This document shows positions 6,201-60,300 of a stretch of DNA of 64,000 nucleotides, one piece after another (the stretch's first letter is position 1; each line of letters begins with the position of its first letter). The notes below the pieces were generated by a model, which was not told the origin of the DNA, ran no database searches, and worked only from the letters and a program-made list of their open reading frames with translations. Made by a program: the position numbers and the translations under genes. The stretch spans positions 36,796 to 100,795 of the forward strand of contig RCAB01000213.1 in the NCBI GenBank assembly GCA_003640385.1, read 5' to 3'. The DNA is from Setaria digitata (taxonomy: Eukaryota > Nematoda > Chromadorea > Rhabditida > Setariidae).

Positions 6201-8404
6201 AACAAGAAAATATCGATGCAATGATCGAAGATTTAGCAGTGATGATTGTCGTTATGCGTTATGCATTAGAACATTGGACCGAAAAGTACCGAACACGGAA
6301 GTACCCTACAGTAGAACTAGTCATTTATCAGATATTGGAGCACTTTGTGAAACCTGTACTGGACATCCCATTATTAATGGTACTTGTCTAAAAATCGCCG
6401 ATCAGGTTACATCAATTAATTTTCAATAAATAATTAGCTAACATAACATTTCTTTCACCAGCAAATCTTCCAAAAAAAAAATTCACATGTGTCTTTACAA
6501 ACAGTAACTGGCTGTTTGCAATTAAAGCTACAAGGATACAAAGAAAATCTTTCATTATCACAAAACATTTTTTTGGAAATTTTCCATGTGAATATCAATT
6601 CTTATTACTTCCTTTTCTCGACAACTGTCCTAAAATGTACAGCGGAGGAAATTATCCAAATAGCTTCTTTTGGTTCTTGTTTAGATGAAATAAGAGAGTT
6701 TCAGAGGACAGTATTTGGCTCGAGCACACTTCATTCCTTTACAGTGACAGACTGTAGCACATTTTCACCCAGTGAAACAGTAATCGAAAAATTCTGCCGA
6801 ATCTGTCACAGTTTTGGGAGTTCCGGAGACCCGCTCATTTCCCCATGTCGTTGTACTGGTTCTCTGAAGTATGTCCATATATCTTGTCTCTTAGTAAGTT
6901 TCTGGCTAATTAATTTAAATTTTAAGTTTTCTCTGCAGACATTTCAATACTATGTCAAAAGATTTGTATAATTTTCTGGAACACTAACAAACATTAACGC
7001 ATTACTCCTTCGCACATAGAAATTTAAATCTTCACGATGAACTGAACTTATCAAGGAAACTCGTTCTCGAATTATTCCTTTTTTTGGTCCTTTTATCATT
7101 GCATAATTCTAACTCCAAAGTAGGGCAACAGTTACTACTTTAAATTAAATTTAACGACTGAAAATTAATGTTTGTATTGTTTTTGTGGAATCATTTCGGA
7201 TTTGTTTTCCTAAATGAAACATTCAAGCATTCTGTTCAGCATTGGTTAACAATTTGTGCTCATAAACTGAAGCGTCCAGCAATATGTGAACTTTGTCTTT
7301 ATAAGTATCGCCGACGAAATATGATCGACGTAAGCATTGGAAATAAAAATATTGAAATGTAAAGGAGCTGGCACAGAACTTAGCTTACTCGGAACAGATA
7401 AGTACTGAGGAAAGCGTAACTGTGATTTGCATACCAGCAGCATTGTTTGTTATTTACTGACAGAATTATAAACTTTCAGTGGCATAATTTACATTTACCG
7501 TCGATTTCAAGGCATGATTTACGTTATCTGATAGCGTTTATCATAGCTGCTACAATGATGTTTCTGTCCGCTGCTGCATCTTTTATTTGCTTTTGCATTG
7601 AACGGAATTTGGTGAGAAACGATACGATGGATGACAGTTTGTACGTTTTCTTCCTATTAATATGCAAAAAAGAACTAAATTTCCCGCAATACCCAGAACT
7701 TCTTTTCTAGAAGTTCAAAAACGAGTACTGAAATTGGCAGTTAAAGAAGTCGGCACATAAGTGTAGTTCCAGGAAGTAAAGGAAATAAAACAAGTCTCCA
7801 AGTGTATTAGAAAGTCGATTAATAATTCCTTCAAACTCGATGTTTACAGCTAAATTTCAGTGAAATGATTGGGAAAGAAAGTGGCGAATGGGAAACTTTA
7901 CTGACTTCATCTACTTTTCTTTCTGCATTTCTCTTCTTTGTAGCTCTTTTTGTTGCCCTGTATGCTCACGTCAAGGTATGTCATCTTACCTCTTGTCAAA
8001 TATTAACTTCCATAACAAATATTAATTATCTAATGTCCCTGACCATAAAGTTTTCACTAATCGAATATTGATCACCCTCCAGCTTTTTAATATTTCTCCG
8101 CCTTAGATGGTCATTTCTTTCTATTTATTCAAAATGACCCAGCTTAAGCAAAGCATCTTCATGTTAGCTACTAGTTACGACAACTAAAAACTGCTGGTTA
8201 TTTGAACTTCAATTAATCTTGCAGAAGATGTCCTTTATTTTTCAGACAAATACTAGTCTAGCAAGTTATATATATCGTTTTTGGGTAAATAACCAAAATT
8301 GGATGATAGAAGAGTACCGGCCAAGTCGTGACCAACGGTACTGCCACAAAATGGAACAACTTCGAAGACGACTGAATGGTAACACGTTCGGCGTTATTTG
8401 TTAA
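3283..8404 (+). CDS. MARCH-type RING-CH E3 ubiquitin ligase
   Basis: Exons 3283-3342, 4710-4769 (or to 4778), 4981-5047, 6197-6405, 6705-6893, 7240-7329, 7480-7640, 7861-7975 and 8246-8404 join in phase to about 369 residues. The RING-CH domain is complete, with Cys163, Cys166, Cys180, Cys182, His190, Cys193, Cys211 and Cys214; the spacing C-x2-C-x13-C-x-C-x7-H-x2-C-x17-C-x2-C is diagnostic of the family. Two hydrophobic segments follow at about 241-265 and 292-314, the usual MARCH topology with both ends in the cytosol. Family members ubiquitinate membrane proteins in endosomes, ER or plasma membrane. The first 150 residues are Cys- and Ser-rich and match nothing I recognise. The catalytic half is certain; the three N-terminal exons rest only on matching phase. 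Which MARCH paralogue this is cannot be decided. Confidence 0.82.
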
Positions 8405-24187: not shown

Positions 24188-27100
24188 TCATGCGAACATT
24201 TTAGCTGGAGTTCCACGTGCAACCTGAATAATGTGATCGGCAACGTTACCTCGTAATGTCCACGCTAGAGAACGCAATGAAATTCCACGTTCACAAATAG
24301 CTCGCGGTACGTTTACTGGTACTACAGTTTTTCGCGTATTTACCTAGAACAATTGAAGATCGGGAGGACGAAAACCTAAAGAAATAGTATTTCTGAGTTT
24401 TAAAAATTTGTCCTTTTTTATATTAAAACTTTTTTGATGACTATGTTTCTTACGTGCTAGACATAATAGCTTCATATTTCTAAAAGACATGTGATTAAGT
24501 GTTGCTAGAAAGGAAAGAAGACTAGGAGAAAAAATTGGAACAACTCGGAAGACCTCGATCATATGTATGATAATTTTATCCATCATCGTTGAATGTCCTC
24601 GTTTCCAGTTGCCTGGATCATTCCCAAACACAGGTACGTATACAAATCTAGAATTTAGAAAGCTAGAAATTTTGAGCCAAAAGTTCGTTATTGCCATATG
24701 AATCGTAATTCTACCGATCAATCGACTGTTTAGCACAAAAATTTCTATCAACCAATTTCATAACTTTTCCATGCTTGAAACTTACTGCTGGATCCAGAAT
24801 TTTAATGTGATATATGAAAAATAGAAAAACCTTAGAGAAACGTGACAGATTTTTCATGGAACAATTCAGAGTGATAAAAATTTTCGACTCTTCTGTGAAG
24901 AATACTTTAGTTTTGATAGTTAGAAGTCCGTATCAGGTGATAATGTTTAGGATAAGAGAGATTATGTGAATGAACACTTTTCAATAACCTAATATTATCA
25001 TCCTCACATCACTCGACGCCTAATCCAAGGATATTATATAATTTGTTATTATCTTTCTAGAGAACAAATCTTACTTATCAGTAGCTAATATAGCAGTATA
25101 CATGCCACAGTTCCCCCTTCTGTCTTTATCCAAATATGCTGGCAAATCGATTAACATCACTTCATCACGGAACTTTTTAAACAATTCAGCATCCAAATAA
25201 GCCCTCGTATCCTTATCCAACGTCGGTATCACCAGTATCTTAAATGATTTGTCGAAGAAATGAAGAAATCGGAGAAATCGGAAAAAAATAATGAAAATTC
25301 GATGCTTCTCCTTATTTCAAACATGTAATGTTCACGTTTGAAAACATATTAGGAATGGAATGCGTAATAAAGGTTTAGTCTTAAACATCGCTAGATTCCT
25401 CTCGACTGCAAGATTCCTACTTATACTTTGGTATCCTTTATCAAATAATTATTGGCTTGCATTTTTTTTACAGAAAACTTTAGCTTTAAAATTGAACTGA
25501 ACTGCCAATTCTGAAGAAGCTTCTTACTTGGTCATCGATGAACGACATAACATCATCTAGCCGTAATTGCGTCGTATTCATCGGATTATCCACAATGGTT
25601 ACCTGTACTGATAACATAATTAGTTCAAACAAAATTAGAAATAAACGGTTTTTTCCTCTTTCTTTGTCTCTTTTGCTTGTCATCATTATCAACGATTATA
25701 TTGGATCAGTTTAAATTGGATAAAATAGTCGAACACGACAAAATATGCCAACAAGTCATTAAATTACTCATATCGAAAGAAATAAAAAGGAAATGAATTC
25801 ATTTTTCTGTACTGGGCTTATTTAATCTCATAAAGTAAGGGAATGAAAATATTTGTAAGGCGACTTCTGGTACTTGGATTTCAATATGTGGAGAAATAAG
25901 TGACTGAAATTACATATATCCTGAAATCAATTAATGCCGTAAAATAAGCATAAAAATGCAATGCCAAACAGAAATTCAAATTTAATGATTCAAAGAAAAA
26001 GTTCCAAGGATTCTTGCGACACAATTTAATTAAAAAATAAATACCTTCCTGAAAGCGTTGAAGAGCTTAATCATTATGGCCCATTCCGGCACCTTTCCTT
26101 GATTTTCATCCAGTACTCTCTGCAAACAGAAAATACATCTATAATAGCTTTTTTACCTGTATCAAACTAAACTGATTTTCTCCACCAAACATATCAATTG
26201 CCAGCTCGACTACATAAGAAAAAAGGGTATCATAAGAGAGAGAGAGAGAAAAAAAAAAATGGAATAAGAGCTCCAACAGTTTTGACAACTCTAGTACAAT
26301 TGTTTACGGACTTATTTCCTCTTTTGGTAATTGTGTAGAAAGTTAGATCCATAATTTAACACTTCATGGTTTTGCTAGGAAGTTTCAGGTACTTTTAAAT
26401 ATGATACAGAGGCTCCGGAACTGCTATGAAATCTTGCAGGAACTTAAATTCTTATTGTGAATAGGAAATTACTGCGAAACTCATGAAATTCCTAGATATT
26501 AACTGAATAAGTAAAGAAGCCTCGCGACGAGTTAATGAAATCATTTAAATTTACCAACAGTTTTAAAATTGGGAGTGGAGTTCATTATTATATAGCAATT
26601 TTTAAAAGTGAAATATAAAATTATCAACCTTATCAATAACAGCTCTGTTGATGCCATTATCCACAACATATTGTGCGGAAAGTATTAATTCCAATTCCTT
26701 CTTATCAATACGTATTTTATAGTCCTCAATGAATCGCTTAATACTTTCGTCAATTTGTTTTGCGGCTATCGTTGCGAAATTAGGAGGCCTCGAAATAATT
26801 TTTTTTTACAAATAATTTCAATCATTAGTTTTAAAGAACATAGTCTTTTGTTGCTTGTTACTGTTCATTTTAGAAATTCAAATGTTTGATTTGCCGTTGG
26901 GTACAGCGTAAATAGGCCAAAAAAGGAAACTCACAAAATCAGAATGGCAAAATATTAAGTTGCTAGGTAGTTAAGCTTCAACGTTGAATGAATTGATCCT
27001 TACGGCTAATATCTAGGTTTCAAGCATAATTCTCAGTACGTTTTCTATCTAATAATCTGCTCTCACTTTATCGAGTTTTCTTCTTATTTCAGGATGTACA

Positions 27101-28749
27101 AAAAGAAGTGGGGAAAAAAATTTACCTATAAGAAAATTTTACGAGTTGTCGTACACCAAATGGTGCAAAATCTCGAATATTTATGTCATAAACGGACGCC
27201 TGAATCAAGGCATCTAATGGTAAACGTGATTTAACTGATGGGCTCCTTCCATCCAAATATGGCATCGTGTGTTTATCAGCAAGTATCACTACGTTATCAT
27301 GTTCTACAAAAAAAGATCACTCTCATTTTTGGTTGAAAAATCTAAATATTTGCAATTCTATAGCTTTGACTTGATTCAGACCGTTATTAGAAACAGAATT
27401 TGTCGTCTCGAGAACTAAAGAAATCAAATATTTAAATTTACAATTGAGAAAACCATTTCCGGTAAAATGTGATTGTTCGAGATTACAACCTGAACTTCAG
27501 AAACTACACTTTCTAATTTTCTGACGTTACGATCATGGAAAATAAGTTATCAGTTATTATGATAATTTGGAGGTTATAATATCTTTTAAATGACAGTTTT
27601 ATCTCAATTCGTTAAATTGTTACCATGTATCGTTTTTGCAAATTCGATCTGAAATGCGATAATTGTCTCAAATAAATCATGATAATTATCGTCCCTGGAA
27701 AAACTTCGAAAGCTTATGGTTAAATTAATGACTGAATTTGAATTTAGACAAATCCCACTTCGCCAAGTACCAGATCTTGACTAAATGAAGAATTAAAAGT
27801 TGAATAACTTTCATTTTCAACAATTCATAATAACAGTTGAGACGTCTCGCCGATCGATAATTGAATATTTGCATGAAAATTAATCGAAATAAACAAGCCA
27901 AAAAATGATTTACAAGAAATTTCCTCATGAAGAAGCGTTTAAACTTGTGAATAGGAAAATGTAGAAAAAGATAAATTCTTATTTCATTTTCTAAACATAA
28001 TATGTCATCTTCTAATTTCTCAGTAGCAACCAAAGCCCTTAAAAAAGTTCTTTTTCGTGATCACTGGCTGGCTGCCAGTTGTTCGGAAGGAAGGAATTAA
28101 CAGCATAATTACATATCACTCAAAACTGGTTTTATCAGTATTCCGGTGAATGATCAATCTCACACCCGTCAATTTCCCACGGTCACAACTGTTCAGAAAT
28201 GGAACTGCTGCAGTGAAATGATCGAATCTGAGCAGAGCAATTAAAAATTTGAAAAAGTGAAGTTAATTAGCTTTTGTCGTCATATCAGTTTAGAATTTTG
28301 CTATATTCATCTCTCAGATAAGAATAACTATTTCATTTAAAACAGGCTGCAGTGCAGTGCATGTGATGGATCACAGGAAGCTAATAACATCAGATCAAAT
28401 GGACACTGGATGATATGGCAGTTGAGGAATCAAGTGGTCTAAAAAAAGAATCAGATTTTTAGGCATTTTGAATTTAAATTCATGCGAAATCTCTAAAAAG
28501 AAACTAAAAACTGCTTTTATCTTGTATCAATAATAGCAATATCACCAGACAACTTATCACATTAATTCACACTTTAGATAAAACAAAAACTACACAAACA
28601 AACCATATAGATGGTGCTGATAATACGAGAAGTGATCGATCAGGTTTGTGTACATTGAAAAATTCCGCTTGCACCGGTCGAATAATTAGCAGAAGTAAAG
28701 CACCGAAGATGTTCGGAGTTGAATGGTACCATAGACGGTTGTAGAACAT
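24188..28749 (-). CDS. Secreted deiminase-fold (PAD_porph-like) protein, probably catalytically dead
   Basis: Ten exons (28604-28749, 27624-27694, 27126-27303, 26629-26788, 26157-26204, 26045-26119, 25528-25602, 25075-25238, 24554-24647, 24188-24343) join in phase to 388 residues. A hydrophobic stretch ending at Ala28 reads as a cleavable signal peptide. The order of motifs recalls the agmatine/peptidylarginine deiminase family (pentein fold): VVILAD, PYLDGR, RDFAPF (116-121), VKFSYRPP, VVDNGINRAV (173-182), YVPVFG (309-314), then ISLRSLAWT (358-366). Length fits that family. Active members carry a GG-N motif, an H-x-D motif and a final Cys in a GG-x-x-[HR]C-x-T-x-Q box. Here SAQY precedes VVDNG, PEWAI replaces the H-x-D region, and Ser362 sits where the Cys belongs. 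Family membership is by remembered motifs, not alignment; loss of catalysis is inference. If wrong, it is an unrecognised conserved secreted protein. Confidence 0.6.
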
Positions 28750-36269: not shown

Positions 36270-39200
36270 TCATCGCTTCTTTGGAATAAGTTCGAGACCC
36301 GTCATATACTTCTTGTCAACACCATATTTAGAAAGAAGATTGCTGATAAACAAAACCTGAAAACAGAGATACAGGAAAAAATCCAAGAGAGTTCTTCAAT
36401 ACTATGACAAATTTAATTCAAACTTGCAACAAGGAGAAAAAAAAACCTTGTCTTTATATTAAGTACTAACACGATCATGTAACATATCTATCATAGATAC
36501 CGAATCACCTTGACCTATTTACATATTTTTTAGTAATTTCAAACAGTGCCCTCCTGTTAACATTTACTAAGAACACAAAGTTTTCTCTAGATTCTTTTTG
36601 TTTGAAGTCCTCTTCTTGAAACCACACTTGACCATATTGTTCATGATATCAAAACTCCAATACGAAAATGATCAAGAAATGTTAGAAGGCCTTTTTAAGT
36701 CAAACATTAAGATGAATAAAATGATCACTTGATTTCCCTGCACTAAAATTTGAGGACCTTCACATTCTGCAGCATCATTCACAACAACAGCACTTGTCGC
36801 CACACCTATTTGTATTTCACGGCAAAATTTCTTATGATCAATTCCATAAATGCTCAGATTATTCACCAGGGTTACCTTCTTATTACCAGCACGATTTTCA
36901 ATCTAAAAATTACAATTATTAAATTCCTTAAAAGTAAAACTTCCTGAATTCTTAAGAAAAAGATGCAGTTTCCAAATCTTAATAATAATAAAGATAATTT
37001 CCTTATCTTCATTTCAAACTTTAGTGCTCTGAGCTGCAAATTTATTTTATGAAATACTTGATAAAATCACCATCAAGGAAAAAGATTGTCACCTTTCGAC
37101 TATCATATGCCAAAACACTTTTGTTCTACTAAGATACACCGTATCATCACATTGCATTTTATGCCGCAAATCATTGTTGCTTTTGCAGAAACACATTTTT
37201 CTTTCAGAGAAAATAGAAATTTCGTTTATATATAAGAAATATAAGAAACTTTAACCTTAAATGTGATTTTTGGCAGTTTTGACTTCCGTGTCAACTGCTT
37301 TCCATCAGCTGCAGTAATAACATAAGTCTTAGTCATTTTTGATATGATTGTTTGAAACAGTGTGTTCCAATCCACTCGTTCACGAGATTGAAACAATGAT
37401 ATCAGCGTATCATCAGTAAGTACGACTAGTTTACCTTCCATGGTTGGATTCTAGAAAAAGTCGAAAATCAATAATTTAAAATACTTAAGAATTTTAGTTT
37501 ATATCCAGGAGTAAAAATACATTGGTTCTGCAGAACCAACACATGAACCATCTGCAAAAAAATAGAACAGATATCACTGCAATGAAACATTTCCCATAGT
37601 TTTTGTAATTTCAAATATCAAAATAATCCTACTAAGAGATTTGTAGTTATGTTGTCTTAATAATGCATTAATAAATAATAATAACAACTAAAACACATCA
37701 AATGATCAAAGCTGCACGACCTTTACATACTGAAACCTCTGGTATAAAGGAAAAAATGAAATGTAGCTGAATCAGTAAAAGTGAAAGCATCCAACGTAAA
37801 TATTCTAAGAAAGATATCCAAAAAAGTGTCATTCGAATATGTAACTTGCTTTATCTTTCACGTATGCAGTGATTATTTTTCTTGCTTCTGCATTATTCAT
37901 CAAATCACCCTTTTCACAGTTACCGCGAAAAATTGCCGACACTGATTCGGTAACAGCAAGATAATCATCTACTTTAACCATTTTCCTTTCAGTTTTTACA
38001 TCAACATTTTCATCGGTTATCTTAAAATTTTTCAGTAGTGGATGCTGCCAATTCACCTGAAACAGTGACTGCAAATTCAAAAATTATCAGGAAAGATAAT
38101 AATGACAAATTCTTTATCATTCAGATGTTTTTTTTTGGTGATAAGTGGGTACCTTAAAAGACAGCACAAGCTTACTAAAATTAAAACATACGCATCTACT
38201 AAATTCAATGTAGAACAGTAACTGCTTATATCGGGAATAAATATTAATACGAGTTCTGAAATGAAAGAAACATAGAAAATAACAGAACTGTTCGAATCCC
38301 CAACCTCAGAAATCATTTCTGACCCCTTCTGCTTGTTGGTTATAACTTTCACAATAGGTTCACTGCCGCTCCTGTTGATAACATCTAGAAAAACGCTAAA
38401 TTTTTTATAGACTGTTTTCTTCATATCAATCCGTCGACCTGATGGCACACACGACAGGAGATAGCGTGAGTAAAATTCTCCAACATCCAGTGGCAGCTGT
38501 CCTTTTTTAGTTATACGATATTTCAGGGCTGCTAAGAAACAACGTTCTAGCTAAAAAAAAAAAAGCAATTTTCACGCTTTCTTAATAACTTCGTAATGAC
38601 ATAAGCTGTAGATAATATAGGCAAGGATAATAGAGATAACATAACATTCCTGTAATTAATGAGTAAAATATCTATCAAATTACATAAAAGAAAAAATTTC
38701 GAAAATTTATCAACTTCGAAAATTTATCAACCGAAGAGCCAGGTAGTTTCAGAAAAGAAAAAGAAAATCTAACCAAAATTTCTATTGCATCAAGGTCCTT
38801 AACTCCTTTTTCAGTTTGATTTTCTATAGCAATTGTTAATTCACCCATTTCTTGTTTGATACTAGACGCAGCATCAAACGATGGGTCATTAAGTGCTTCA
38901 TCAGGCACTTCGCTAGTAATTCCATCCACTGCTGAAGAACCCAAAGCCGGAAATTCAGTTTCATAATTTCTAGACGATGCATCAGCTACAACCAGCCTTT
39001 CAACAGAAACTTCCAAAGGCTGTCCATGAGATCCCACATTCCTAAATAAATAGAAAGCATCAAAACAGAGCACAAAGCTCGAATCTTTGGATGATAAGCG
39101 ACTCGCAAGTGAACCTGCAGCAAATCGGAGAATGAATACACAAATTCAGCTAGATAAGTCTTCCTTTTTGTAGCACAATGAACAAATGCTGACTGGAACG

Positions 39201-41246: not shown

Positions 41247-44200
41247 GTCGCTCGAAAGCAACGAGATTCTCTGCGAAACGCCGTTGCATTGGAACAATTA
41301 TTGGAGTTCAGTTATCCAGCTGATATGCCGGAAGCACCATCACATATTCATAAGCGTGTGATACTTGAAACTGAAACTGTGGCTGATAACGAAATTACAG
41401 TTGCAAAACTGCAGAAAATATTCGGCATACAAGATAATGATGCGAGAGATATGGTTTCTAGTTTAGAGTACGTTTCCTTGACTTGTTCATTTTCCCAATT
41501 TTCTTTTTTTTCAAGTACCGCGGATTTTTGTTTCCATAGCTACTTTTTTAAAATCAACTTCAATTCATTTATTTACTTTTTTCAAATCAAAGTGTATTCT
41601 GTTTTTGTATTTTTTCAGCGTTAGTAATTTCGCTTTGCTCAATAAACGAGATATATTCTTTCGGAAGAAAGTTGATCTTGAAGATATACCGCCCGATACG
41701 GAATTAGAAACTTTAAAGTATTTGGTTTAATTGGTGCAACAAATGATATGTTTGTGTGAGAGATATAGTTTCCGATTTAAGTCACTGATATCGCTTTTCT
41801 GATGTGCAGTAACTATTTTATATTTTATTGTCAGTTTTACTGCTGAAAATTTCAGGACTCCCTACTTCTCCATCCTCCATTTTTGTCATAATTTTTGAAC
41901 ATTCGTTTGTGTAGATTCGGAAGTGATAAATTTCATTGTTGTAGACTGAAAAAGAAAGTTTTGGATATGTTCAATCCAATTAAGAAAAAACCTGCCGGAC
42001 CGTACGATGATCCACGGTAAGATTTTATTATTTCTCATGTTCTTTAAGATTTGCTGAACTTATAAGGAGACAATTAAAATGAAATGAAAACATATGAAAT
42101 GACTGTTGTACTGCATTTAGTGGAAATGAAACATTTTTCAATTGCAGACAACGTGAGCAGGATCTGAAAATGAGAAGGAATATACAACAGAGCATGTGCT
42201 ACGGCAGTACTGTATTAAAGTATGGTGACTATTACGAAAATGTATGCTGTTACTATTTCTCTAATTTAGAGTGCAAGAATAGTAGTTCAGCAGTCAGATT
42301 TTCTGGTATCGGTTCTTAACAAATGATTTTTCTTTGGATTGATAATATATTCTTGAGTTATTACTTTAAATTACTACAGGAAATGAGACATTGCCGAAAT
42401 GATGGATACAAGCAAACGGTGGTGAACGATATCGTTGTAACAGTGGTTATTTGTAAACCATATAACAAAGCTTTAGAATATCTAGAAAAACGAAATGCAA
42501 CGGCAAGTTATTGAAAATTATTAATCACAAAACTTGCAGAAGGGAGCTTTAGATTCCTGGCAGTTTCGCGTTTCAATTACTGTTAAGATTATAACCGTGC
42601 TGCCTATTGCTCGTAGAAATTTTCCATCATAATTGTAAGCAAGTGATTATGATAACGACCAGAAGGAAAATCCTTAAATGGGAGCTCATGTAAGGACTTT
42701 TTTTTCTGACCGTCTTATTAATAATTTATTGAAATTGGATCTCACATGGATTTCTTATTTACCCCTTTTTTATCCAGAGCAAAGATTGAAAAATAACCAA
42801 TTTTTGTAGTTGCGACCGTATTGGCGATTCTTACTACGGGGTGAGACATCTTTACTCGAATTGCACAGCTTATTTCGTTGTACGGCAGATTATGGAACGG
42901 CAGTAGACGAAGATAAAGTGCCTCAGCTGCATGATTTTAACATGGTACATGAATTTTTGAGTTCTGGCTTTGAGTTTATTACCTTTGTTACTGCAAGGTT
43001 TCCATTTTTTTTTTCTGGATTTAAGTTGGTCAATTTTCAAAAAAGACTTTTTTATGCTCAAGGATTGTTCTTTTGTCTTGAATTACAGTATTTGTTTTTC
43101 AGTTCAGATACCCGTCTTCATTCTTATTTATTCACGACACGTTTTATGTGGCGGAAACCTACGCTGGATCTAAAGAAACATTATTGCAAATCGACAATTC
43201 TAAAATTGAGCCTCACATAGATATTTCAGAGTAATTAGTTTCCTCCATATACTCAGCGAATATTTATCGTTGATGATGATTGCATATGTGCATTAGGTCC
43301 TGAATTATATTTTAGGGGATTTGTCATTATTTCTGAGGCTCATCAGATCAATAATTTAAGACAGTTTTGGGAATGTTTTTAGTTCCTTTTTATTTAATTG
43401 TATTTCTCTTTTTATTTTCTTTATATCCGATTTAGACCGATACGTGAATGGATGAAAAGGAAACCGAAAGATTTCGGTCCAACACAAGTTAAAAGCCTAA
43501 ATCAGAATAAGGTTTGCTATAGCATTTGTAAATAAGTTTCGTCCTTGCTCGAAAAATACAATAAGCCGCGTGAAATCAAACAGGTCACGGAAGTGTATTA
43601 AGCTCATGGAGAACATTTTTTGAATCTTACTGCTGATTGTTATAATGGCTTTGAATTGGATTATTCTAATTGTCATATCAGGAAATAGCGATTTGAAAAA
43701 AATGCACTGAAGAAAAAGTTATTCCTATGCGTTGCTTGGCGCAGTATTTCTGTCTAAAATCATCTTTCAGGTTAAAGACTTGGTTTGTCGTCTCGGATAT
43801 CCATATGTTTATGTTCACCAAGGTAATTGCGAGCATGTTTTCTTTTTCACAGATTTGCGACTGATGGATGTGCAAGATTATCCCATCGATTTTCCTCAGA
43901 AATTATCCGATACAAGCCTGGAGAACTATTGTATCACATGTCATAAGCGGATTGCAGAGTAAGCCATGATTTTCTATTCCAATAATACCCGGTAGCTTCG
44001 GCACTGGAAATAAAACCGAAATATTCAGGAATGACAAACAGGATAAAAGAAAAAATGGCTGTAGGAGGGACTGTAAGAGAATGGCGCATGCATGTCATGT
44101 TTGTTTTTCTTCAATATTTTGATACCAATGTCCAGATTATTTCGTACATTTTTCAGCCATTTATTTGTTCCAGTTTCAGCTGGATAGTTGAAAGTGAAAG

Positions 44201-44327
44201 TTTTCCGATAAGTCCAGCTCATATGTGCGATGATTGCTACCGAAGCTTTCATTATATTCTGTCTTATCGTCGAAATATCGATTCCAGAGCTTATGTTTAT
44301 ATGGATCCATCCGTCCTGCAATACTGA
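41247..44327 (+). CDS. SNAPC3: snRNA-activating protein complex subunit 3 (SNAPC3), 5' end missing
   Basis: Exons 41247-41467, 41619-41717, 41945-42016, 42148-42241, 42380-42502, 42810-42944, 43103-43230, 43436-43511, 43771-43958 and 44174-44327 (or from 44180) give 429 residues plus an unresolved N-terminus. Family landmarks in order are DIPPDTELETLK, a conserved FRYPSSFLFIHDTFYV block, and the C-terminal domain CRLGYPYVYVHQGNCEHV followed by a Cys/His zinc-binding cluster (CITCHKR, then CDDCYRSFHY). SNAPc binds the proximal sequence element of snRNA promoters and recruits Pol II or Pol III. The intron after 42502 begins GC rather than GT; only that donor keeps the frame. A start MTS at about 41200 spliced through a very short intron is possible. 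A decayed copy of the last exon follows the gene. Confidence 0.9.
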
Positions 44328-47118: not shown

Positions 47119-49797
47119 CTACCTTCGCTCCGTACTACTAAAACCTAAAAACAAAGCAGTTTAAACAATAAGGATGAATTATATCTCCAATACTGTGTTG
47201 CTTGTCATCATGTATATTAGAAAGAACTATGTTAAAAAATGAGATAAAGCTTCATACCCAAAATATGCAATTTGTCAACAAATGCCAATGAACAGAATCA
47301 TAATGCAGTAACATTAGTTAAACAATTAACAATAAAGAAATTTACCTGTGGTTGTTCGACTTGTTGAGGGTCCTGGCGAATCATCCCTGTATCTGCTACG
47401 CGAAGCGCAACTCTCATCCCATTCATACGGTCGTCTACTTCGAAAGAAACTACTTTCACTAAATTTAATAAAATAAATTAGTAGAAAATTAGTAAAATTT
47501 GTAAATTAGTAATGTTTAAACTTTCCACTAAATCAGTAAAAAATTTAAACATTCTTACTAAACTGCTTAATGATTCTTACCAACTGTCTACAAACCTCAA
47601 AGTTCCAATCACCGAATTTTTTTCCGATATGATAAACAAACCTGCTTTGACTCCTGCCATACATGTAACCAGCTAATCCACCTAATCCAAGACCAGAAAA
47701 AAAACCAGGTCCGCTGAACTGAGATTGTGCATTAGATGCATCAGGAAAAGATTCTTCGTACGTAGGAGGTGCGTCGTATGGACGTGTAAAGCTTTTGAAA
47801 CCTGGCGGTGGTGGTCGTCCGTCACCCGGTGGAGGCGGTGGTCCTTGATCCCAGCCCCAACCTGAAAGAAAACTTTGGAGGATTTTTTTCTTCAAACATA
47901 CCAACATTCATCCTAAAAGAAGAGTCCAGTACTGCTACGAGAATATTAGATGGACATTTCCGTTATTTTCCATTGGATATGAAAAAAGTTAACAGAAAAA
48001 AAAAAAAAAAAATGGAAATCTGGTTACCGCTGCGATACGTCCTGTCACCACTAGTAGACTGCAAGCAATTGGAATAAACTAAATAGAGGAATAAAGCCAT
48101 AACGGCTATAACAGAAAGTGTTGCGAGATCAAATCTGAAACAATTCTTCTGAGAGCTACACTGAGAATTTTATGCATCTAAATAACTAAATCTTGACTAC
48201 CACGAAAGAATAATAAAAAAAAAAAAATTATTAAAATCAACCAGAATATATCGAAAATGTTACAAAGAATTGTTGTAGAGAGAAAAGGAGAGAAATGCAA
48301 GCTTAAAATGCGGCTATAAATACTCACTTTTCATCATTCTTATAAGGTGGTGCATTTGGTGTTTTCTTGTACTTCCCATAATTATTTCTTCTGTATTCCA
48401 GTTCGTATTTTAACTAAAAAACTACTGGTGAATCATAAAAAATGGAAAGCACTCCTACTGCTGTTAAAATAAACTAATTTATATGAAACTCCAATTAAAA
48501 ATGGCAACGAACTTCATGAGGATGAATTTTAAGCTCACTATACTCATCGAATACAGTGTACTAGTACAGTGGTACTTATTATTATCATTTGCTCATATTT
48601 TGAGGATATTTTCATGAGCAAGGACATTCAATTCATTTTACCATATTCATACCTTTTTTTATTAATCAAACCAACGGATATTTGAGAATTTAAACTTACA
48701 CCACAAGAACCTTGCAGAATGTATGGGTCTTTTGGATAGTCATATCCCTCACACGAGATACGAATCTGGAAAAGAAACCTACACTTTCCGCAAAACTTCG
48801 ATCAAATTTCCGATTTAAATTAAGTGGTACTGCTTCACAATTCCGAGTGCTGTCTATTAGACTTAAGAATTAATTTTTTGATATGGAGAAGAGATCGATC
48901 CTGAGAAACAGTGACAACTTACAATTAACAATTTAAATAATCAACATTTTGTAAAAATTTACTTCGCCAAATTCGTACTGATCGCCCATTTCCGCCTTGC
49001 ATTCCCACTGAACATCAGAGCCATCATGACCTTTATTGTAGCATTGGATAACCTGAAACTACAGATAAAATGCAGGAGGATGAGCACACACACAGGTTAA
49101 AAAAATGGCAGCTTTCAGATCATTCATAACACTGACGAAAAAAAACCTCATCCACAGATATTAATTATAATGAATACTGGAAGATTAACTCCGTAGAAAA
49201 AAATTACGACACATATCTCTTTCACATAATCTAATAAGCGGTCATGCCTGACATGAATACAAGCAAAGTGGCAAGATCTATTGCAAGAGATGAACAAAAG
49301 AAAAAACTACATTTTATACTCACCCTGGGTTCAAACTGTCCTTTTGCTGATCCCCCGACACATTGAATTTGTGGGATTGGGGCCGATCTTCTTCCCGTAG
49401 TATACTTATCTCGATATAATGTTAGCGTTGAGACATCAATCAGTCGAACTCTATCAGAACTCTCTAAAAGTAATGAAATAGCAAAATACCTTAGTCGAGG
49501 ACAATTTTTCGTAGCAATCTCTGCACCAAATATCAGAATAGGTGGATAGCTTTTCAGTGTTTACGACTTACCTACCTTAAAATCTCTGCATATTCTCTTC
49601 TTTCCTTATCTATTGAAACCTTTCTCCTTACTTTTAATCTGTAGTTAAAAAGCAAAGCAAAAATAATACACATGACCATTCGAATAACTTGTTACTTACT
49701 TAAGTTGTTACTTACCACAAAAATTAACAATGCCAGTTAACAATGTCACAAGCAGTCTGCACCGTCGCAACATGTCAAATCTAAAAACTTTAGACAT
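47119..49797 (-). CDS. SARAF: SARAF, store-operated calcium entry regulator (TMEM66)
   Basis: Nine exons (49716-49797, 49324-49463, 48963-49052, 48700-48765, 48328-48413, 48028-48134, 47642-47861, 47346-47458, 47119-47144) join in phase to 309 residues. A signal peptide (alternative start at 49773) leads into the luminal domain: DRVRLIDVSTLTLYRDKYTTGRR, QCVGG, VIQCYNKGHDGSDVQWEC, ISCEGYDYPKDPYILQGSCG, with the family's cysteines kept. One membrane span lies at about 158-176. The cytosolic tail is Pro-rich (PPPPGFKSFTRP), has PPTY at 222-225, the Gly-rich block GPGFFSGLGLGG and a basic end STERR. In mammals SARAF is an ER membrane protein that binds STIM1 and promotes slow inactivation of store-operated calcium entry. 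The PPTY motif could bind WW domains of Nedd4-type ligases. Recognition is firm; the choice of first Met is open. Confidence 0.95.
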
Positions 49798-51403: not shown

Positions 51404-54380
51404 CTGCAAAAGGAACACTTAACTGATATTAGTTCAGTAATGTATTTCTTTCTTCATAACTGAATACAACTCCTCTAACTTCAATGGGCTTTCGTCCCTT
51501 CTATTTATTTAAATTATTTCAGTAATGATTTCAGGTTTTTCAGTGACTCCTTCATTGTAAATGGTCCTAATATGTATGTAACGAAGCATTCTCATTTATA
51601 GCAATGCCTCAATAAACTGACATATGTAAGTGTGAAATTAAAGATATTGATAAATTATTCTAAATGATTAGGAGATTATGAAATCATAACTAATTATAAA
51701 TATTAGTTCCTAAAACACGCCGTTGAATATTTCTGTTAACAAATCATTTGTCTCTTTCCAGCTGGTAGACAAACTTTAAAAGATGAACTGTGAAAGGGAA
51801 AAATATACAAACCTGGCATTGGAAATTTAATATAGTAATAGTAAACAGCAAAGGAAGAGGTAACAGTAATAGGATAGTACCATAAACCATTGTTCAATCT
51901 CGTCAAGTATCTATTGAGATCACTATTAAATATAAAATTGCTAGACTTGTGGTAAACAATATCACAGAGAAATTTAGCAGCTTATACGGGAATTAAATCC
52001 GTAAACAAGTCAGGAAAAGTGGTATTCTAAAAGTTTAATTAGTGATATAAAACACTCATGGGTGAGATACCATTAGCGAAATCGGCCTGGAAATAATTAG
52101 TTGCAAGAGACAGATGGCCAAGTTGGTTGGCCAAAGGTCTTTTTCTCTTCTATTTCTAGCACTCCCTGTCCAAATAATATATAACTTATGCACATTTCTG
52201 TGCTTGTTTCACAGTGGTGCATAAATGACGTAACTGTAGAAATAGCATCATGGGAAAGGAAAATTCTGCAAAATGGTGTGAGTAATGAATTTAAAATGCA
52301 TGAGAGGAAGAATTGATAACCATATCCTCCTGGACAGTGAGCCAAGGAGTGATATGAGGGATAGATGTAATAGCTTAAAATGACAAATTGCTATCAGTTT
52401 CACCTATCAATCACTCCTTTTTCCTTTTGTTGCTAACATGGGAAATTTTTCATTGTTCAGGTAATGATCTGATTATTTAATGGTACTTGCAAATAATCTA
52501 AGTCCGGCTCTTCCTCAACTGTTCTTTTTTTGGTGCTCATAACAAAAATAAAAACACAGTGGTTACGAAGTAAAATTTAATTTAAGAGTGTCATTAAATT
52601 AACACTACTCATTTCCAAGCAATATGTAAGCATGGCTATAAAAGGCGAAATAATTGTAAAATTGGGAATAAAATTAAAGTGAATTATTAAAGCTTTGAGA
52701 AAACAGCTGATTCCCAAACACCATTACCAACATGGCATATGATTATTCAATTATGATGCTGCACAATACAAACCCTTCTCGACAAAAGATACTCCTGCAC
52801 ATCTGGAAGGATGATAGGATTTTTGCTCTCGAGATGTCACTTTTACTTCACATAATTCTCGAGAACTTCAGTCTGTTTGGAATTCCTACCTTCTAGGAAC
52901 CTAAAAATACGGATGATAGATCTAATACAAACACTACCATACCTTATAACTTATCGCCTTATATTAGACCATATTAATTAAAAATTCCATCATGGAGAAA
53001 ATCCGACTTGAACCTTATTAAATTCAAATGAATTTTGCTTTTGCACATGGGGCTGAATATCAATCAAATCATATGCCAGGACATTTTCAGACAAAAAATA
53101 GCGTGATATTTGCATTCTACAAATAGTTTTATTAAGCTAACTACTTCAACAGTTCAACCTTTCACTTAAAAAATAAGTCTCACATTCTGCCAAAACCACT
53201 TGATACTCAGAAATAGAACTGAAACAGAACACATGAGAACGCCGAAAAGCGAATAAAAGATATACCCTGAAAATGTTAAATTATACAAACTGTAAGCTAT
53301 GTCCTGTAGTCCCTTCATTCTGCATTTTCCATAACTCAGACACACAGCTTTCAAGTTCAAGCTTTTCAGCTGTTATTTCATTTCAAAATATCGTTTCTGT
53401 GCACTACTGTCATGAACTCACTTTACTAATACTTATCATTTTATATTGCCTTTGTCTCAAACAGAGTGCAGATTTCAAGAACTCAAAAGGAAATTTCAAA
53501 GATTAAAGTGATTACAATTTGAGATTGCTCTTTTCCTTTAATTCAATAACATGCACTTCTTTACCATTACTACCAATAATGTATAAAGCACAGGTCACCA
53601 CACTGATTTCAATACCGTATGTTACGCTGAAACGACCTATTGCATCAATTTGTTCCATGCAATGACTGTGCAACAATTACCGTAACACACGTAGTGGTAT
53701 TTATCAGACCCTCTGACCAGTGGTGGTGGTTGTTTGGTGTGTATTCTCAGTCTCCATGTACATATATATTTCATAAGTATTACTACTTCTCTCTAGTGCA
53801 TCATCGTTTTTAGTGCTCTTTCTACCCCACCCACTTAATAATACTGCAGTTTAAAACGTTTTTATTGAAGAATTTCTGGTAAATTATGCTTACATTTAAC
53901 AGCAGAATTAGTCGAAGGACTTTACTACTCCAGAACGGTATGTCAAGAAATGTTAGTTAAGAGGATCTAAGCAGCTGTGGTTTAGGGAGAAATTATAAGC
54001 CGTGCGAATCATGGAATTCGTGAATAGGACACTGCAGTAGCTTAAAGTACTATTTGTTGAAGGAAAAGGGAAAAATTGAAACAGTATGGATGAGATGGAT
54101 GGACGGGGTAAATTTCATATCAGTGAGTGTTGAATCGTAATGTATGAAACGTTTCCCAGAGGAAATCATTTAAGACGGAGCTGAATGGAACTTTTGCAGT
54201 CCTCTTTATCAAAAAAAATTGAAGAACTCTCGATATGTGTGCAGTTCAACAGTTCAGTATTCTGTAGGAACACCATTAGTGCTGTTAATTAAACAGATAC
54301 ACTCAAATTTCGTCTCACAAAAATTATTTTACATTTCGACTTTACGAAAGCCATTACTAATACGAAAATATTTTGTCTGT

Positions 54381-54392
54381 ATTTTTTTCAAG
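54381..54392 (+). promoter_or_regulatory. Candidate spliced-leader acceptor, SART3
   Basis: A pyrimidine run ends in TTTCAAG three bases before the SART3 start codon. No in-frame upstream exon is apparent, so trans-splicing of a spliced leader is the simplest reading. Confidence 0.5.
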
Positions 54393-54395
54393 AGA

Positions 54396-57300
54396 ATGAA
54401 TGACATAGAAAGTGACAACGAGGGGGAAAGTAAAGAAATGGAGCAGGAGGAGGATGAAATATATGACGATGAGGCACATACAGAAAAAATTGATAACATG
54501 AGGAAGGCCGTAAGTTTTTCTCTTTTTTTTACACTTATCACGTAATTTCAGAAAGTCAAGACTAAAACAAACTTACAACTGCAAGTGATGTGTTGCAGGT
54601 GGAAATTTCCCCCACTAATTATGACAATCGCATGAAATTAATTGAAGCTTTACGTCGATGTGGTGAACTTGAGGCAGTTCGAGAACAGCGCGAATATATG
54701 TCGAAATTATATACAATGCCTGCCAACTTCTGGTTGGAATGGGTCGAGTTAGTTCTATTTAGCAAAAGTAATCCAGTATTGCTCGATCATTTCTCCAGCA
54801 ATAAAGTGTCGTAAAGAGGGTATAGAGATAGCCTAATTTTGTAAACAAGTATCTCATATATTTGTACGATTCCCTTGAATTCCTCTTTTGTTTCATGTTA
54901 TCTGCAGAGATGAGAAATTAGCAGAAAATGACAGGGATTTGATTAAACGACTTTTTGAACGTGCAGTGAGGGATTTTCACAGTCCCGAAGTTTATCTAGA
55001 ATATGTGCAATGGGCTTGTGGCACATCACTCGATTTTGCTAGAGAGGTAACAATGCTATCTTAATTATTATTTTTTTTTATCAAAATTTCTTCAGAAGAG
55101 CTTTTAAGCTTTTAGCTAGGTGATTCGACTAAGGATTGTAGAAATTTTAACGAATTTATCAGTATTTGGCTTGTTGAGCTATTCATCACAGATATTTCTC
55201 TGTAATGATGAAGCCATGTTGAATATATGTGCACTATGTGTAGAGAGATTGTGCTTGCTGTTAAACTGCTTCCATCCTTCCCGTTAATGATAAGTCACGT
55301 AACGTAGTAAAATGGAACATTATACTACATTTTGATTAGAAGAAGGGTTTTTGTGATTTGTTGGAATATAAAACAATATACTGCAAAAAAATCCTTAGAA
55401 AATGGAAGAAGCAGTCACAAAAATAGGCTTACGAGCGGACTGCGCTTCACTTATTTGGAATATTTATTTGGATTTTGAAAAGATGATTTTAAATTCAATG
55501 AACGGAGAAAAGGATGAGAAGCAAAGGAAATTAGTGGAGTCTTTGTATGGAAGGTTGCTTCGCATCCCTCATGTGGGTCTGCAGGACTCATGGGATGAAT
55601 ACAAAACATTTGCAGGTAACTTTGCTTTGCTTCGATTTGCTTTTTTTTTTCTTTTTGAAGATGTCGATGTGATAATTATCCTTTTAAAAGTAGTGCTCAT
55701 TTTTTTTTTTTTTTTTTTTTTTTAAGCTACTTTATGTTCCTTTGTTTCATTTACTTAATTGAATCTCTTCAACAAAGAATAGTGTAATTTATTTCATATT
55801 TTATTCATTTTTTATTTCACTGTATTAGAAAATACGTATTAAGAGCCATGGTAGAAGAAATTTTTTATGTATACTTAAGAATAACAATCAGGGGAACTTG
55901 TTAATTAGGTTATGTTCTCAATAATAAAGTATAATATAATTTTGAACAGAGTTTTTGTTACTTAGAGGGTAAGGAGTTAACCGAATTCCGTAAACTGTTT
56001 GAAAGTTCGGCAAAACATATGGCAGATATCAATGAATTTGAAGAGCGTCTCAGTAATGCTGCTGACGAAAATGCAAAATTATGCGTTATAACAGATTACA
56101 TTGATTTCGAAATGCAAAGTAACTTTCCAAATTGTATCTTCAAGCTATTTTTTTTAAATATATTTTCCTTATACGTAAGTCAAATGTCATGAGTTTTATT
56201 CGAGGTGTATTCTATTAATGAATTGTACGTTCAGCGAACGATCCAGCTAGAATTCAGATGATTTTTGAAAGAGCACTTTGTACTCTTGCTGATTCTCCAA
56301 ATGCTGATCTCTGGTTGCACTACGGTAATTGGGTGGATGCTTCATTGAAGTTAGCACAGGTTAAGAAAACTTGTAATGCTCATTTTGACTTAATTTTTAA
56401 CAGCTATAGAAAAAATGATTCATATCTCTAAATATTTCACCTTGCTGTGAGGGGATATCTGTTCTTTCTTTTTAAAGCATAGGAACAAAAAAATGACTCT
56501 TTGAGTTCAGTACATAGATTTAAGGTTTCCGCAGACGTGTATGCACGTGCTGTACGTCATGCACCATGTTCAGCACTTTGGCAACAGTACCTTTCGGCGC
56601 TTGAACGTTCGAATGCCTCATCGGAAGAAATTGATTCCAAATGGCCAGATGCTCGAAATACAATAACAACACAGGAAGAAGGATTATCATTATATCGTAC
56701 CTACATATATTTGCTTAGACGACGTGTTGTCAAACAAGGTGTGTTTTTTATGTTCCATATTTTATTTCTAGCTGTTATTTTTTATTATTTTTTTTTTTAT
56801 ATTTTATTTTCTACCCATTCATAATTATAAGAAGACGGGAACGTGAAAGACTTTTGTTATCACTTACAGACCAATCTAATTATGACAGCATGCCAACATA
56901 ATTTTGCAAAAGAACGTCTTTTTATTCTTCAGTTTCTTTGTTTAATCCTAATTTTATGCCACTTACCAATTTATCAAAAGACTTGATAAAATCCTCTGGT
57001 TGTTTTTGTGCTTATCAAAATTTTCATTTTGTAGGTGGAGATGATTATACGCTTGTGCTAGAGAAATTTGACGAAGGTGCAGCTTTTTTGGCTGAGAAGT
57101 TTGGATCTCACTGGGATAGTCCTAAAGCGCAATATCGTAAAAATCATGCTCGCTTCTTATATACATTAGGAAAACAACCAGAAAAAGGTGCTTTTTAATA
57201 TCTAATATTTTAATTTTTTTTTAATGTCTAATATTTTAATATCTAATTTCATAGTGACTTTTATTCTTCTTGACTTCTATTACGTTGTACTCAAGATTTT

Positions 57301-60300
57301 CTTGTTTCTTAAACATTCTGAATTTAAATGTTTATTAAACAAATTTGTTTTGACGACTAGTTCCGTAAGAGATCTGAAATTCATGATCACTCATAGGTCA
57401 GGCCTTATTCTGATCGGTTTCAGCTCTAAAAATCTGGCATGATATTTTGGCATCAGGAAATGGTCACTGTGCAGCAGCTTGGATAGAAGCTGCTAATTTA
57501 GAACGTTTTTTTGGCAGTATTAACAACGCCCGTAAACTACTCTACCGAGCCATCAATTCAGCGAGCGATCATCCGTATATAGTGAGTTTTTTTTTTTCGC
57601 ATAAATGAACCTTCCTTTCACTCTCTCTAACGCAAATTAAGATAAGCAACGGATCTGAAACACTGCTCATGCGATGCGAAGGTAATCGTTTTTTAATGAG
57701 AAGTAAAAGGTTTTCAGACTTTTGATGCTCTTATTCAATTCGAAAGAGAAGTAGGTACAATCGAGGAATTGGATAAAGCACTGGAAAAGGTGAATGCTCA
57801 AGCGTCTCGGATTTCACTGAGACCGCAAAAGGACAAAGCAGAAAAAAGTATTAAGAAGAGGAAGAAAGAAAGTAGTGGAGATGTTGAAATCAAGAAAAGG
57901 AAAGACGATGTGCAGGAAAAAGAACAAAGATTTAAAAGAAACAGGAATGAAACTGCAAACGGCACAACAGAAGCGGTGATGGAAATGCAACAAAATGTAA
58001 TGGTAGTTTTTAAAAAGTTTTAATTTTATGGAAATTTATCAAAATTTTTTTCTGTCAGTAATTTAATTACTTTTGATATTGTAGGGAAACTCTTGGTGAG
58101 ATGTATTTTAGAATGCTCAGTTGTGTAGGTGTGAAGAATTATTTCAGGCTTCTAGAATAGCTGGAACAATTTTGTTGATAGAAATAACCACTGCCATATT
58201 TTGATGATTATGGAATTAACAACATAGTTTTCAATTAATTTATTTTTTAATACCTTTTAGGTAATAGCCAATAAAAAGCAAGTAGATGGTGATGGCTTTG
58301 TTGTTCCACAACTTCCTTCGCAGTTAGTAAAACCAAAAGTAACTTCAAATCAGAGTGTTGGTCTAGAAGGAACAAGCAAAGATGATATTATGGAGCAGCG
58401 ACATACCGTATTTGTGTCAAATCTCGACTTTAAATTGCCAAAAGAAAGATTGGACGAAATATTCCCGAATGCAAAGGAAGTTCGATTGGTCTACCGGGGA
58501 ATGAGCAAGTTGCATAAAGTAAGATCCACACGGTTTAGTTTGCTCTCACTATCATCAGTGTAAGTAGTTTTTAAATCCAATAATTTTACCTCTTAGGAAA
58601 GCCTTTCAAATAAATATTAGGCTCGTTCCGGATTTATTTTGAACAGCTAAATTATAAATTGGATTTGTCTGCTAATAACATGATTCGAAACGTGGTATTT
58701 ATTATACATGCATTATATAGTACAAATTAAAATTCGTGAGTTACTTCAGGAGTTGGATAAAACTGGTGCATAAGCTGAAAAAAAAAAAGGAACTGGTATT
58801 ATTTCAGGGATTTGGCTATATAGATTTCTCTACTGAATTAGAAGCTGAAAAAGCATTGAAAATGGATCGAAAGCAAATTGATGGTAGGCCAATGTATGTT
58901 TCGGAGTATAAACCACATGATAAAGGAAAGAGTACTGAATTTCGCTACAGTACTGGTTTGGAAAAGAACAAAATTTTTGTTAACAATGTCCATTATGATG
59001 CTACCGAAGAACAACTTAAGGTTTATATTTATTTGAGTTCTGATCTGCCTTTTCTTTCTGTTTTCTCTCTTTCCTATGTTTTGTTGGAAAGTAAATTTAA
59101 CAGCCTAAACATCTATTAAGTGCAACAGCGTAGAAATCCATGATTGTCCCTGAAAAAATGGAAATTCTGAAATGAGGAATATTTTTCGTGAAAATAAGAC
59201 AAACTTCATATCACACTGTTTTCTTTTTGAGGAAATATTTTCAATATTTGGTGCAGTTCGTGATATTCGTATTGTTACGCATAAATCCGGTAAATCGAAG
59301 GGTTGTGCATATGTGGAATATGAAAGCATTGAAGACGCTGCGAAAGCGGTGAAAGCCAATGAAGACCTTGTTCTTTTAGGTTTTTCTTTTTTTTTTTTCT
59401 ATGTTTTATTACATGGAATCACAGAATTAGTATGTCCGTCCCACCGAAGTAGCCTAAGTTTACATCCACAAACAGTATTATTATCCGCTTCCAGAAACAA
59501 ATTTTTCACACTTCGATTGCTTTTAATTGACCATTTCACTTCGAGGTTCGTTGCTGTTTATAGCTTATTTATTTCAGTTTTTAAAATGCTATATTTATTC
59601 CACTTTTCAATTAATCGTTAAAGTTATTAGCATCTCAGAAGAACAACTTNCTATATTTATTCCACTTTTCAATTAATCGTTAAAGTTATTAGCATCTCAG
59701 AAGAACAACTTTTACGACTACTTATATTTTAAAAATAGGCATTTTGACAGATGTGGACTATTTTTTAAGAGTTCTTTTAATATTCTAAAACAAATAAAAC
59801 AGTAATCTCTTCTTGTCAAAAAGAATCTCTTTGCTGCTCAAGAGTTGTAATATCTGTAAATGATTTTATGAAGCAAAAAACATGCACGTTATTGATTTTT
59901 CCATTCCTTCATCAGATCCTTTATCTAACCATTCAAAGTTGATAATATCTACGAACTTATATAAAGTTCTAGTTAAGAGCCAGAATTTAGAGCCTGAATA
60001 TGCCGTAATCTGTGTTAGGATCTGAGTTTCATCTGAAGCTGGTTTTTTTTTTTCTTCTCAGTAATACTTATTCATTTGAACATCAAATTGGTTCTGAAGT
60101 TAAAGGACATTGAAATATTTATCAAACATAATGCAGAGAATATTCATACCTGAGAAGCGATTTTTTTTCTCAACTTTTTGTTCCCAAATAGTGCACTTTC
60201 TTCCCACGAAAAGATTGGTTTTATCAACTTGACTACAGAGTAATAGCTATAAATGATTATGACTGATAAGATGGCTGAAATTAGACAACCCCTGTAATAT

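Follow-up and report, generated by a model that had tools for sequence, protein, structure and literature searches.

What does a nine-exon gene of the nematode Setaria digitata, related to bacterial deiminases, encode, and can its product still act as an enzyme? The gene lies on the minus strand of the 64,000-nucleotide stretch of DNA analysed here (positions 36,796 to 100,795 of contig RCAB01000213.1, GenBank assembly GCA_003640385.1; hereafter the window), where its coding sequence runs from 28749 down to 24188. An initial annotation made from the sequence alone had taken it for a secreted, catalytically dead member of the PAD_porph (agmatine/peptidylarginine deiminase) family. The analysis described below makes it probable that the product is a secreted pseudoenzyme of the pentein fold, derived from a bacterial PAD_porph-type gene that was acquired by a nematode ancestor, inactivated early and kept as a binding protein.

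The interval 24188-28749 proved to be the exact extent of a real gene, backed by orthologues, as 23 named nematode proteins were matched in searches of protein collections. All eight introns are of the GT-AG type, and the coding sequence of 1119 bases (372 codons plus stop) is intact. The product of 388 residues proposed at first was 16 residues too long, since the 372-residue model can be aligned with its orthologues over the whole length; Ser362 and Cys354 of the longer product are thus Ser346 and Cys338 in the present numbering. With the Wuchereria bancrofti protein the product shares 93% identity across 366 positions (BLASTP). Its N-terminus reaches a Kyte-Doolittle maximum of 3.29 (10-residue window, start residue 14) in a hydrophobic stretch ending with VQA, and such an N-terminal maximum was found, by hydropathy alone, in 12 of the 14 nematode-type sequences tested (exceptions, P0005 and P0016). 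No second, active copy was detected in the genome, where a single locus matched at E values up to 10 in an assembly that may be incomplete. Contamination by bacterial DNA is ruled out by the nine exons together with the animal-type Pfam matches among the open reading frames (ORFs) of the window.

The placement in the PAD_porph family was supported by profile-profile comparison and by structure prediction. The sole Pfam match of the full model was PF04371 (PAD_porph), with an E value of 1.4e-4 and a score of 21.6 bits, where the cut-off is 25. This cut-off was exceeded by the orthologues of Loa (P0002, 29.7 bits), Steinernema glaseri (P0005, 37.7), Panagrellus (P0007, 36), Meloidogyne enterolobii (P0012, 31.9), Halicephalobus (P0013, 25.1) and Romanomermis (P0042, 49.5), and by P0022, a nematode-type protein described below (31.8). 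Those of Wuchereria (P0001, 19.8), Bursaphelenchus (P0010, 20.7) and Aphelenchoides besseyi (P0019, 22) stayed below it, and the scan returned no PF04371 match for Aphelenchoides avenae (P0008), Heterodera (P0016) or Acrobeloides (P0020). The firmest sequence evidence for homology over the full domain is the hhalign comparison of 17 nematode-type with 5 bacterial-type PAD_porph proteins (16 and 2 of them, respectively, with a named source), which gave a probability of 100, an E value of 2.3e-52 and 34% identity over 310 columns. The profile of the five bacterial-type proteins in turn matched 11 sequences of solved structures, which are agmatine deiminases or putative peptidylarginine deiminases, and its catalytic boxes align in the H. 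pylori entries. A model of the Wuchereria orthologue took the pentein fold, a five-bladed alpha/beta propeller, with agmatine deiminases as the best structural matches. Other searches were negative within their scope: the only PDB match obtained with phmmer was a chance one, the NCBIfam scan of the window model gave only matches far below cut-off, and no match was obtained with PF04371 against the individual exons of this genome, in the Pfam scan of a preliminary model without exon 2, or among the plasmid records searched for the family.

The catalytic positions were compared in an alignment of 26 nematode-type rows, i.e., the window protein, the 23 named nematode proteins (some of them fragments, with two Parascaris pieces) and P0022 and P0025, both classed as nematode by similarity, with 80 prokaryotic-type rows (72 loci and 8 proteins, 3 of the latter with a named source), all counts being made over the rows with a letter in the column concerned. 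The loci were the best 80 of 91 confirmed stretches, minus 8 without a readable motif ORF; they include one from an archaeal metagenome-assembled genome (MAG; L021) and a 171-residue fragment (L055), and there is some redundancy, as L001 is identical with P0026 and L052 appears to be P0018. The patterns DIW[MI]RDF[AT] and DGGN[VI]VDN served to select the loci, and the conservation counted in these boxes is biased as a result; neither pattern contains the columns for Cys, His or Asn. Columns were assigned to residues of PPAD, the Porphyromonas enzyme, by motif order, with the aid of the mutagenesis primers printed in PMC4487231.

The final box of the window protein does read ICERGISLRSLAWT, with Ser346 at the position of the catalytic Cys. 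At this column the nematode-type rows carry Ser in 21, Gly in one (P0022) and Ala in one (P0025) of 23, against Cys in 79/79 prokaryotic-type rows; at the general-base column Arg stands in 22/22, against His in 80/80. The column of PPAD N297, Asn in 79/79 prokaryotic-type rows, is occupied in 24 nematode-type rows by Ala (18), Thr (3), Ser (1) or Asn (2), the last retained only by Romanomermis and P0022. The triad Cys-His-Asn of PPAD is thus represented by Ser-Arg-Ala in the window protein. The two guanidinium-binding Asp residues are kept, both in the window protein and nearly throughout the family (Asp117 in 22/22 rows; Asp226 in 21/22, with Ala in P0022). As the initial annotation had noted, the GG-N and H-x-D boxes are altered, the latter by the change of the general base to Arg: the first Gly of GGN is kept in 14 of 23 nematode-type rows and the second in none, Gln, Glu, Arg, Lys, Ser or Thr being found at this column (PPAD G182), while GGN, one of the boxes by which the loci were selected, is present in 80/80 prokaryotic-type rows. 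Likewise, Trp is found in 0/22 nematode-type rows at the column of PPAD W127, with Asn, Lys or Phe instead. According to PMC4487231, PPAD activity is destroyed by changes at C351 (to Ala or Ser), H236, N297, D130, D238 or G182. We infer that the window protein would be unable to deiminate, and the earlier view of a dead deiminase is probably right, with Cys and His lost throughout the nematode-type rows and Asn lost in 22 of 24; the free-living relatives Panagrellus and Halicephalobus also lack the Cys.

Cys338, the Cys354 that might have proved to be a correctly placed nucleophile, turned out to belong to a co-varying pair. Its equivalent in bacterial relatives lies eight residues upstream of the nucleophile, which they also have, and among the 80 prokaryotic-type rows Cys338 and Cys279 are both present in 75 and both absent in 4, with gaps in one and neither of them alone in any. 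This coexistence with the true nucleophile and the co-variation with Cys279 rule out Cys338 as nucleophile. The all-or-none pattern is that of a disulfide, so Cys338 is most likely structural, in a predicted Cys279-Cys338 bridge.

Besides these losses, the worm proteins carry features of their own. The 13 near-full-length members have 47 invariant columns (over rows with letters); at 24 of them half or more of the 80 prokaryotic-type rows have the same residue, and at the other 23 fewer do. The latter set includes, in the former H-x-D-G box, Arg224 and Asp227, and also Asn303, Trp304, Gly307 and Ser309, which lie in a loop, NDPxNWxxGxST. This loop, an addition of 10-11 residues downstream of the strand VYVPVFG, is present in 24/24 nematode-type and 0/80 prokaryotic-type rows. 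Accordingly, the gap from Gly298 to Asp313 measures 14 residues in 24/24 nematode-type rows, against 3-4 in all 79 prokaryotic-type rows with letters. An N-glycosylation sequon just upstream of Arg224 was found in 16 of 22 nematode-type rows (missing in Bursaphelenchus, Aphelenchoides besseyi, two Meloidogyne rows, Globodera and Heterodera) and in 0/80 prokaryotic-type rows. Taken together, the invariant replacements and the nematode-only loop point to a repurposed binding protein.

The family is not one odd filarial gene, and it was probably inactivated as early as the deepest nematode split sampled. Its members come from Spirurina (filariae, Anisakis, Parascaris, Enterobius), Tylenchina (Steinernema, Panagrellus, Halicephalobus, Acrobeloides, Aphelenchoides, Bursaphelenchus, Ditylenchus, Meloidogyne, Globodera, Heterodera) and Dorylaimia (Romanomermis); the lineages of Loa, Panagrellus, Romanomermis and C. 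elegans were verified. Panagrellus, Halicephalobus and Acrobeloides are free-living worms, and some Halicephalobus species are able to infect mammals. Panagrellus carries both Ser and Arg, Halicephalobus carries Ser (its His region is missing) and Acrobeloides carries Arg (its C-terminus is missing). Because the family spans Spirurina, Tylenchina and Dorylaimia, free-living worms included, inactivation probably predates crown nematodes. Three word-based searches covered 5.8 billion proteins, the second and third scoring only the 7993 and 7999 candidates with most shared words; the first gave 17 of the named nematode proteins, the second 5 more and the third 1 more. All named matches were nematodes or bacteria; the absence of other named eukaryotes from these word-based matches is weak evidence, as is that of Rhabditina including Caenorhabditis, since the second search also missed Romanomermis, which the third detected. 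With no other named eukaryote among the matches, a bacterial source is simplest, and the ancestor gene was most likely bacterial.

Trees were made on subsets, a quick tree of 79 rows without Romanomermis and a careful tree of 60 rows, the latter carrying a warning that long outgroup branches meet. In the careful tree the nematodes form one clade (support 100/100) with the subgroups Romanomermis plus P0022 (96/87), Spirurina (100/92) and Tylenchina with Steinernema (98/85), a branching that agrees with nematode relationships. Worms and the prokaryotic-type subfamily together make a 54-row clade (98/94); the bacterial affinity noted at first is thereby borne out to the extent that the worms stand within or beside that subfamily, nesting inside it being not proven. 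P0022, the sister of Romanomermis, is a protein of 402 amino acids, full-length in one open frame of a 20,204-base contig, in which Gly takes the place of the nucleophile and Ala that of the second Asp. The prokaryotic subfamily itself is scattered over Bacteroidota, Pseudomonadota, Chloroflexota, Cyanobacteriota and a Thermoplasmatota MAG (e.g. L029, L043, L021), a distribution that points to frequent exchange between prokaryotes.

The present results show the family, the fold (for the Wuchereria orthologue), the losses, the distribution and the single matching genomic locus; the course of events that would best account for them is as follows. The gene for a secreted bacterial PAD_porph-type deiminase was most likely taken up by an ancestor of living nematodes. 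The Cys nucleophile and the His general base would have been lost before the split of Dorylaimia and Chromadorea and 10-11 residues gained beside the old active-site strand, with the fold, the Cys pair and the substrate-binding Asp residues retained; vertical descent would have followed, with introns filling the gene. The protein may now serve as a binding protein, with the remodelled propeller mouth (the Arg224/Asp226/Asp227 cluster and the NDPxNW loop) as its contact site, probably in the extracellular space of the nematode itself. Arg224 set against the Asp clamps, together with residue 171, may occupy the space in which guanidinium was once bound, so that the rim and the NDPxNW loop would remain as the working face; if so, a protein or peptide surface is a more likely ligand than free arginine.

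Several observations weigh against this interpretation. The PF04371 score of the window protein is below the cut-off, a match at E 0.01 or better was obtained in only 11 of the 17 members scanned, and a search of PDB sequences with the nematode profile alone yielded no match. The approximately unbiased (AU) test did not reject a tree with the 39 prokaryotic-type rows as one worm-free clade (p 0.07), so that nesting of the worms inside this subfamily is unproven, and the nematode stem branch is long (1.16). Steinernema groups with Spirurina in the quick tree and with Tylenchina in the careful one, which leaves that node unsure. In addition, a guanidino ligand could still be bound, given that the guanidinium-binding Asp residues are retained (Asp226 everywhere except in P0022) and that 14 of 23 rows still have the first GGN Gly.

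This last point leads to the best of the alternatives, in our judgement an unlikely one, that the protein holds arginine, citrulline, agmatine or arginine-rich peptides without turnover, as a sensor, scavenger or decoy. Both PPAD guanidinium clamps persist, and the titles of the structure matches 6b2w (C. jejuni C315S) and 6jv1 (ArgZ C264S) indicate Cys-to-Ser penteins with substrate; but the change of His to Arg puts a positive charge next to the Asp pair, and the second GGN Gly and the Trp at the Trp127 position are absent throughout. As described in PMC9980740, moreover, RESC5, a pseudo-DDAH with most binding residues retained, showed binding of neither methylarginine nor citrulline. It is doubtful that the old pocket of the worm protein still takes up arginine or citrulline, its floor and stacking residues being replaced as well, and the initial proposal of arginine-rich or citrullinated ligands needs amending in this respect. 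Less probable still is vertical inheritance of a eukaryotic PAD_porph gene lost elsewhere, with no horizontal transfer: the AU result and the limited reach of word-based searches, which score only candidates sharing most words, leave room for it, but every named match is a nematode or a bacterium, and the next relatives in the careful tree are prokaryotic where named. An enzyme of changed chemistry, with a hydrolysis of another kind carried out by Ser346 or some other group, we consider very improbable: although the family is clearly constrained and Ser is the commonest replacement (21/23), variation of this position among Ser, Gly (P0022) and Ala (P0025) disfavours Ser catalysis, the general-base His is missing in 22/22 rows, and PPAD C351S is inactive (PMC4487231). 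Equally improbable is a parasite effector directed at the host, one that mimics or blocks host citrullination for example, to which the signal-like N-terminus and the many parasites among the members would fit, but free-living Panagrellus, Halicephalobus and Acrobeloides carry the same replacements where their sequences cover them, and the host-factor binding first suggested is unlikely for the same reason.

The preferred reading, a domesticated bacterial deiminase, describes an apparent ancient transfer from bacteria to animals in which activity was lost before the deepest sampled nematode split and the protein was nonetheless retained. A pseudoenzyme found in filariae, ascarids, plant parasites and free-living worms, and undetected in Caenorhabditis, may mark extracellular biology hidden from the model worm. 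We see about an even chance that a secreted bacterial deiminase was domesticated and switched off before living nematodes diverged, its site being rebuilt, with the invariant Arg and Asp and the new NDPxNW loop, as an extracellular binding module that many lineages need and that Caenorhabditis and its allies lost; if true, the module would be missed by model-worm biology through this loss. Searches of open-licence PMC papers turned up no description of this nematode family, subscription papers being outside this scope.

Table. Exons of the probable pseudo-deiminase gene, with coordinates in the window and the features encoded.
Exon	Coordinates	Strand	Length (bases)	Feature	Basis
1	28604..28749	-	146	start codon; hydrophobic N-terminus (MFYNRLWYHSTPNIFGALLLLIIRPVQA|EFFN); first strand LLVLSAPSIW	
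2	27624..27694	-	71	DDNYHDLFETIIAFQIEFAKTIH	homology to P0001
3	27126..27303	-	178	IRDFAP; Asp117 = PPAD Asp130 (retained); Asn114 at PPAD Trp127 position	
4	26629..26788	-	160	SAQYVVDNG vs bacterial DGGNVVDNG; Gln171 replaces second Gly (PPAD Gly182)	
5	26045..26119	-	75	RVLDENQGKVPEWAIMIKLFNAFRK	
6	25528..25602	-	75	sequon NTT (219-221) and LRLDDV; Arg224 at PPAD His236 (general base); Asp226 = PPAD Asp238	
7	25075..25238	-	164	GNCGMYTA; Cys279, predicted disulfide half; Ala284 at PPAD Asn297	
8	24554..24647	-	94	strand VYVPVFG, then nematode-only loop NDPGNWKRGHSTM	
9	24188..24343	-	156	ICERGISLRSLAWTLRG; Cys338, predicted disulfide half; Ser346 at PPAD Cys351 (catalytic); stop codon	

Elsewhere in the window, ten ORFs were scanned with Pfam, of which three matched animal-type families over cut-off and one just below. 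An ORF at 6447-6968 (+) carries a RINGv domain (E 2.3e-11) and presumably is part of a gene for a membrane-associated RING-CH type ubiquitin ligase; that at 47548-47907 (-) matches the SARAF domain (E 9.2e-10), SARAF being a regulator of store-operated calcium entry. The run of ORFs at 54174-59618 (+), one with an RRM match (E 9.5e-9), we take by eye as a candidate SART3-type gene, and the ORF at 43986-44324 (+) gave a weak SNAPC3 match of 22.9 bits against a cut-off of 23.8.

Among the closest known systems is the bacterial PAD_porph subfamily, through which active and inactive states can readily be compared. Identity to the window protein is 33% for P0026 (Saprospiraceae MAG) and 31% for P0018 (Desulfococcaceae), and the subfamily shares the hydrophobic N-terminus (4 of 5 proteins tested), the Cys pair (75 of 80 rows) and, by profile, the fold, but it retains Cys (79/79), His (80/80), Asn (79/79) and GGN (80/80) and lacks the NDPxNW loop. 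In P0018, named as an agmatine deiminase family protein, a phosphatidylethanolamine-binding-protein domain is joined to the PAD_porph domain, and a dockerin match below cut-off was obtained as well. Agmatine deiminases (6b10, 3h7c, 6nic and 3hvm; 12-19% identity) differ as active enzymes of agmatine metabolism. PPAD (PMC4487231) differs in its C351-H236-N297, which is Ser-Arg-Ala in the window protein, and in its Gly182 and Trp127, also replaced. Vertebrate PADI is a distant member of the pentein superfamily and a separate family; PMC8826395 reports that PADI is absent from worms and that pPAD-type enzymes are phyletically distinct, and the word nematode is absent from its main text. A further system is centiPAD of centipede venom, likewise an animal protein of bacterial PAD type obtained by horizontal transfer. 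PMC7864903, which also refers to PAD genes transferred to fungi and to an ant, describes two bacterial transfers to centipedes, judged relatively recent, with all five catalytic residues reported as conserved; in contrast, the window protein lacks three of these five residues and Romanomermis two. RESC5 of Trypanosoma brucei is a pentein pseudoenzyme that has lost Cys and His and largely retains binding residues and pocket; according to PMC9980740 it differs in being DDAH-like, in belonging to a mitochondrial RNA-editing complex and in the change of Cys-His to Ala-Pro. By analogy, RESC5 is a precedent for the reuse of a pentein.

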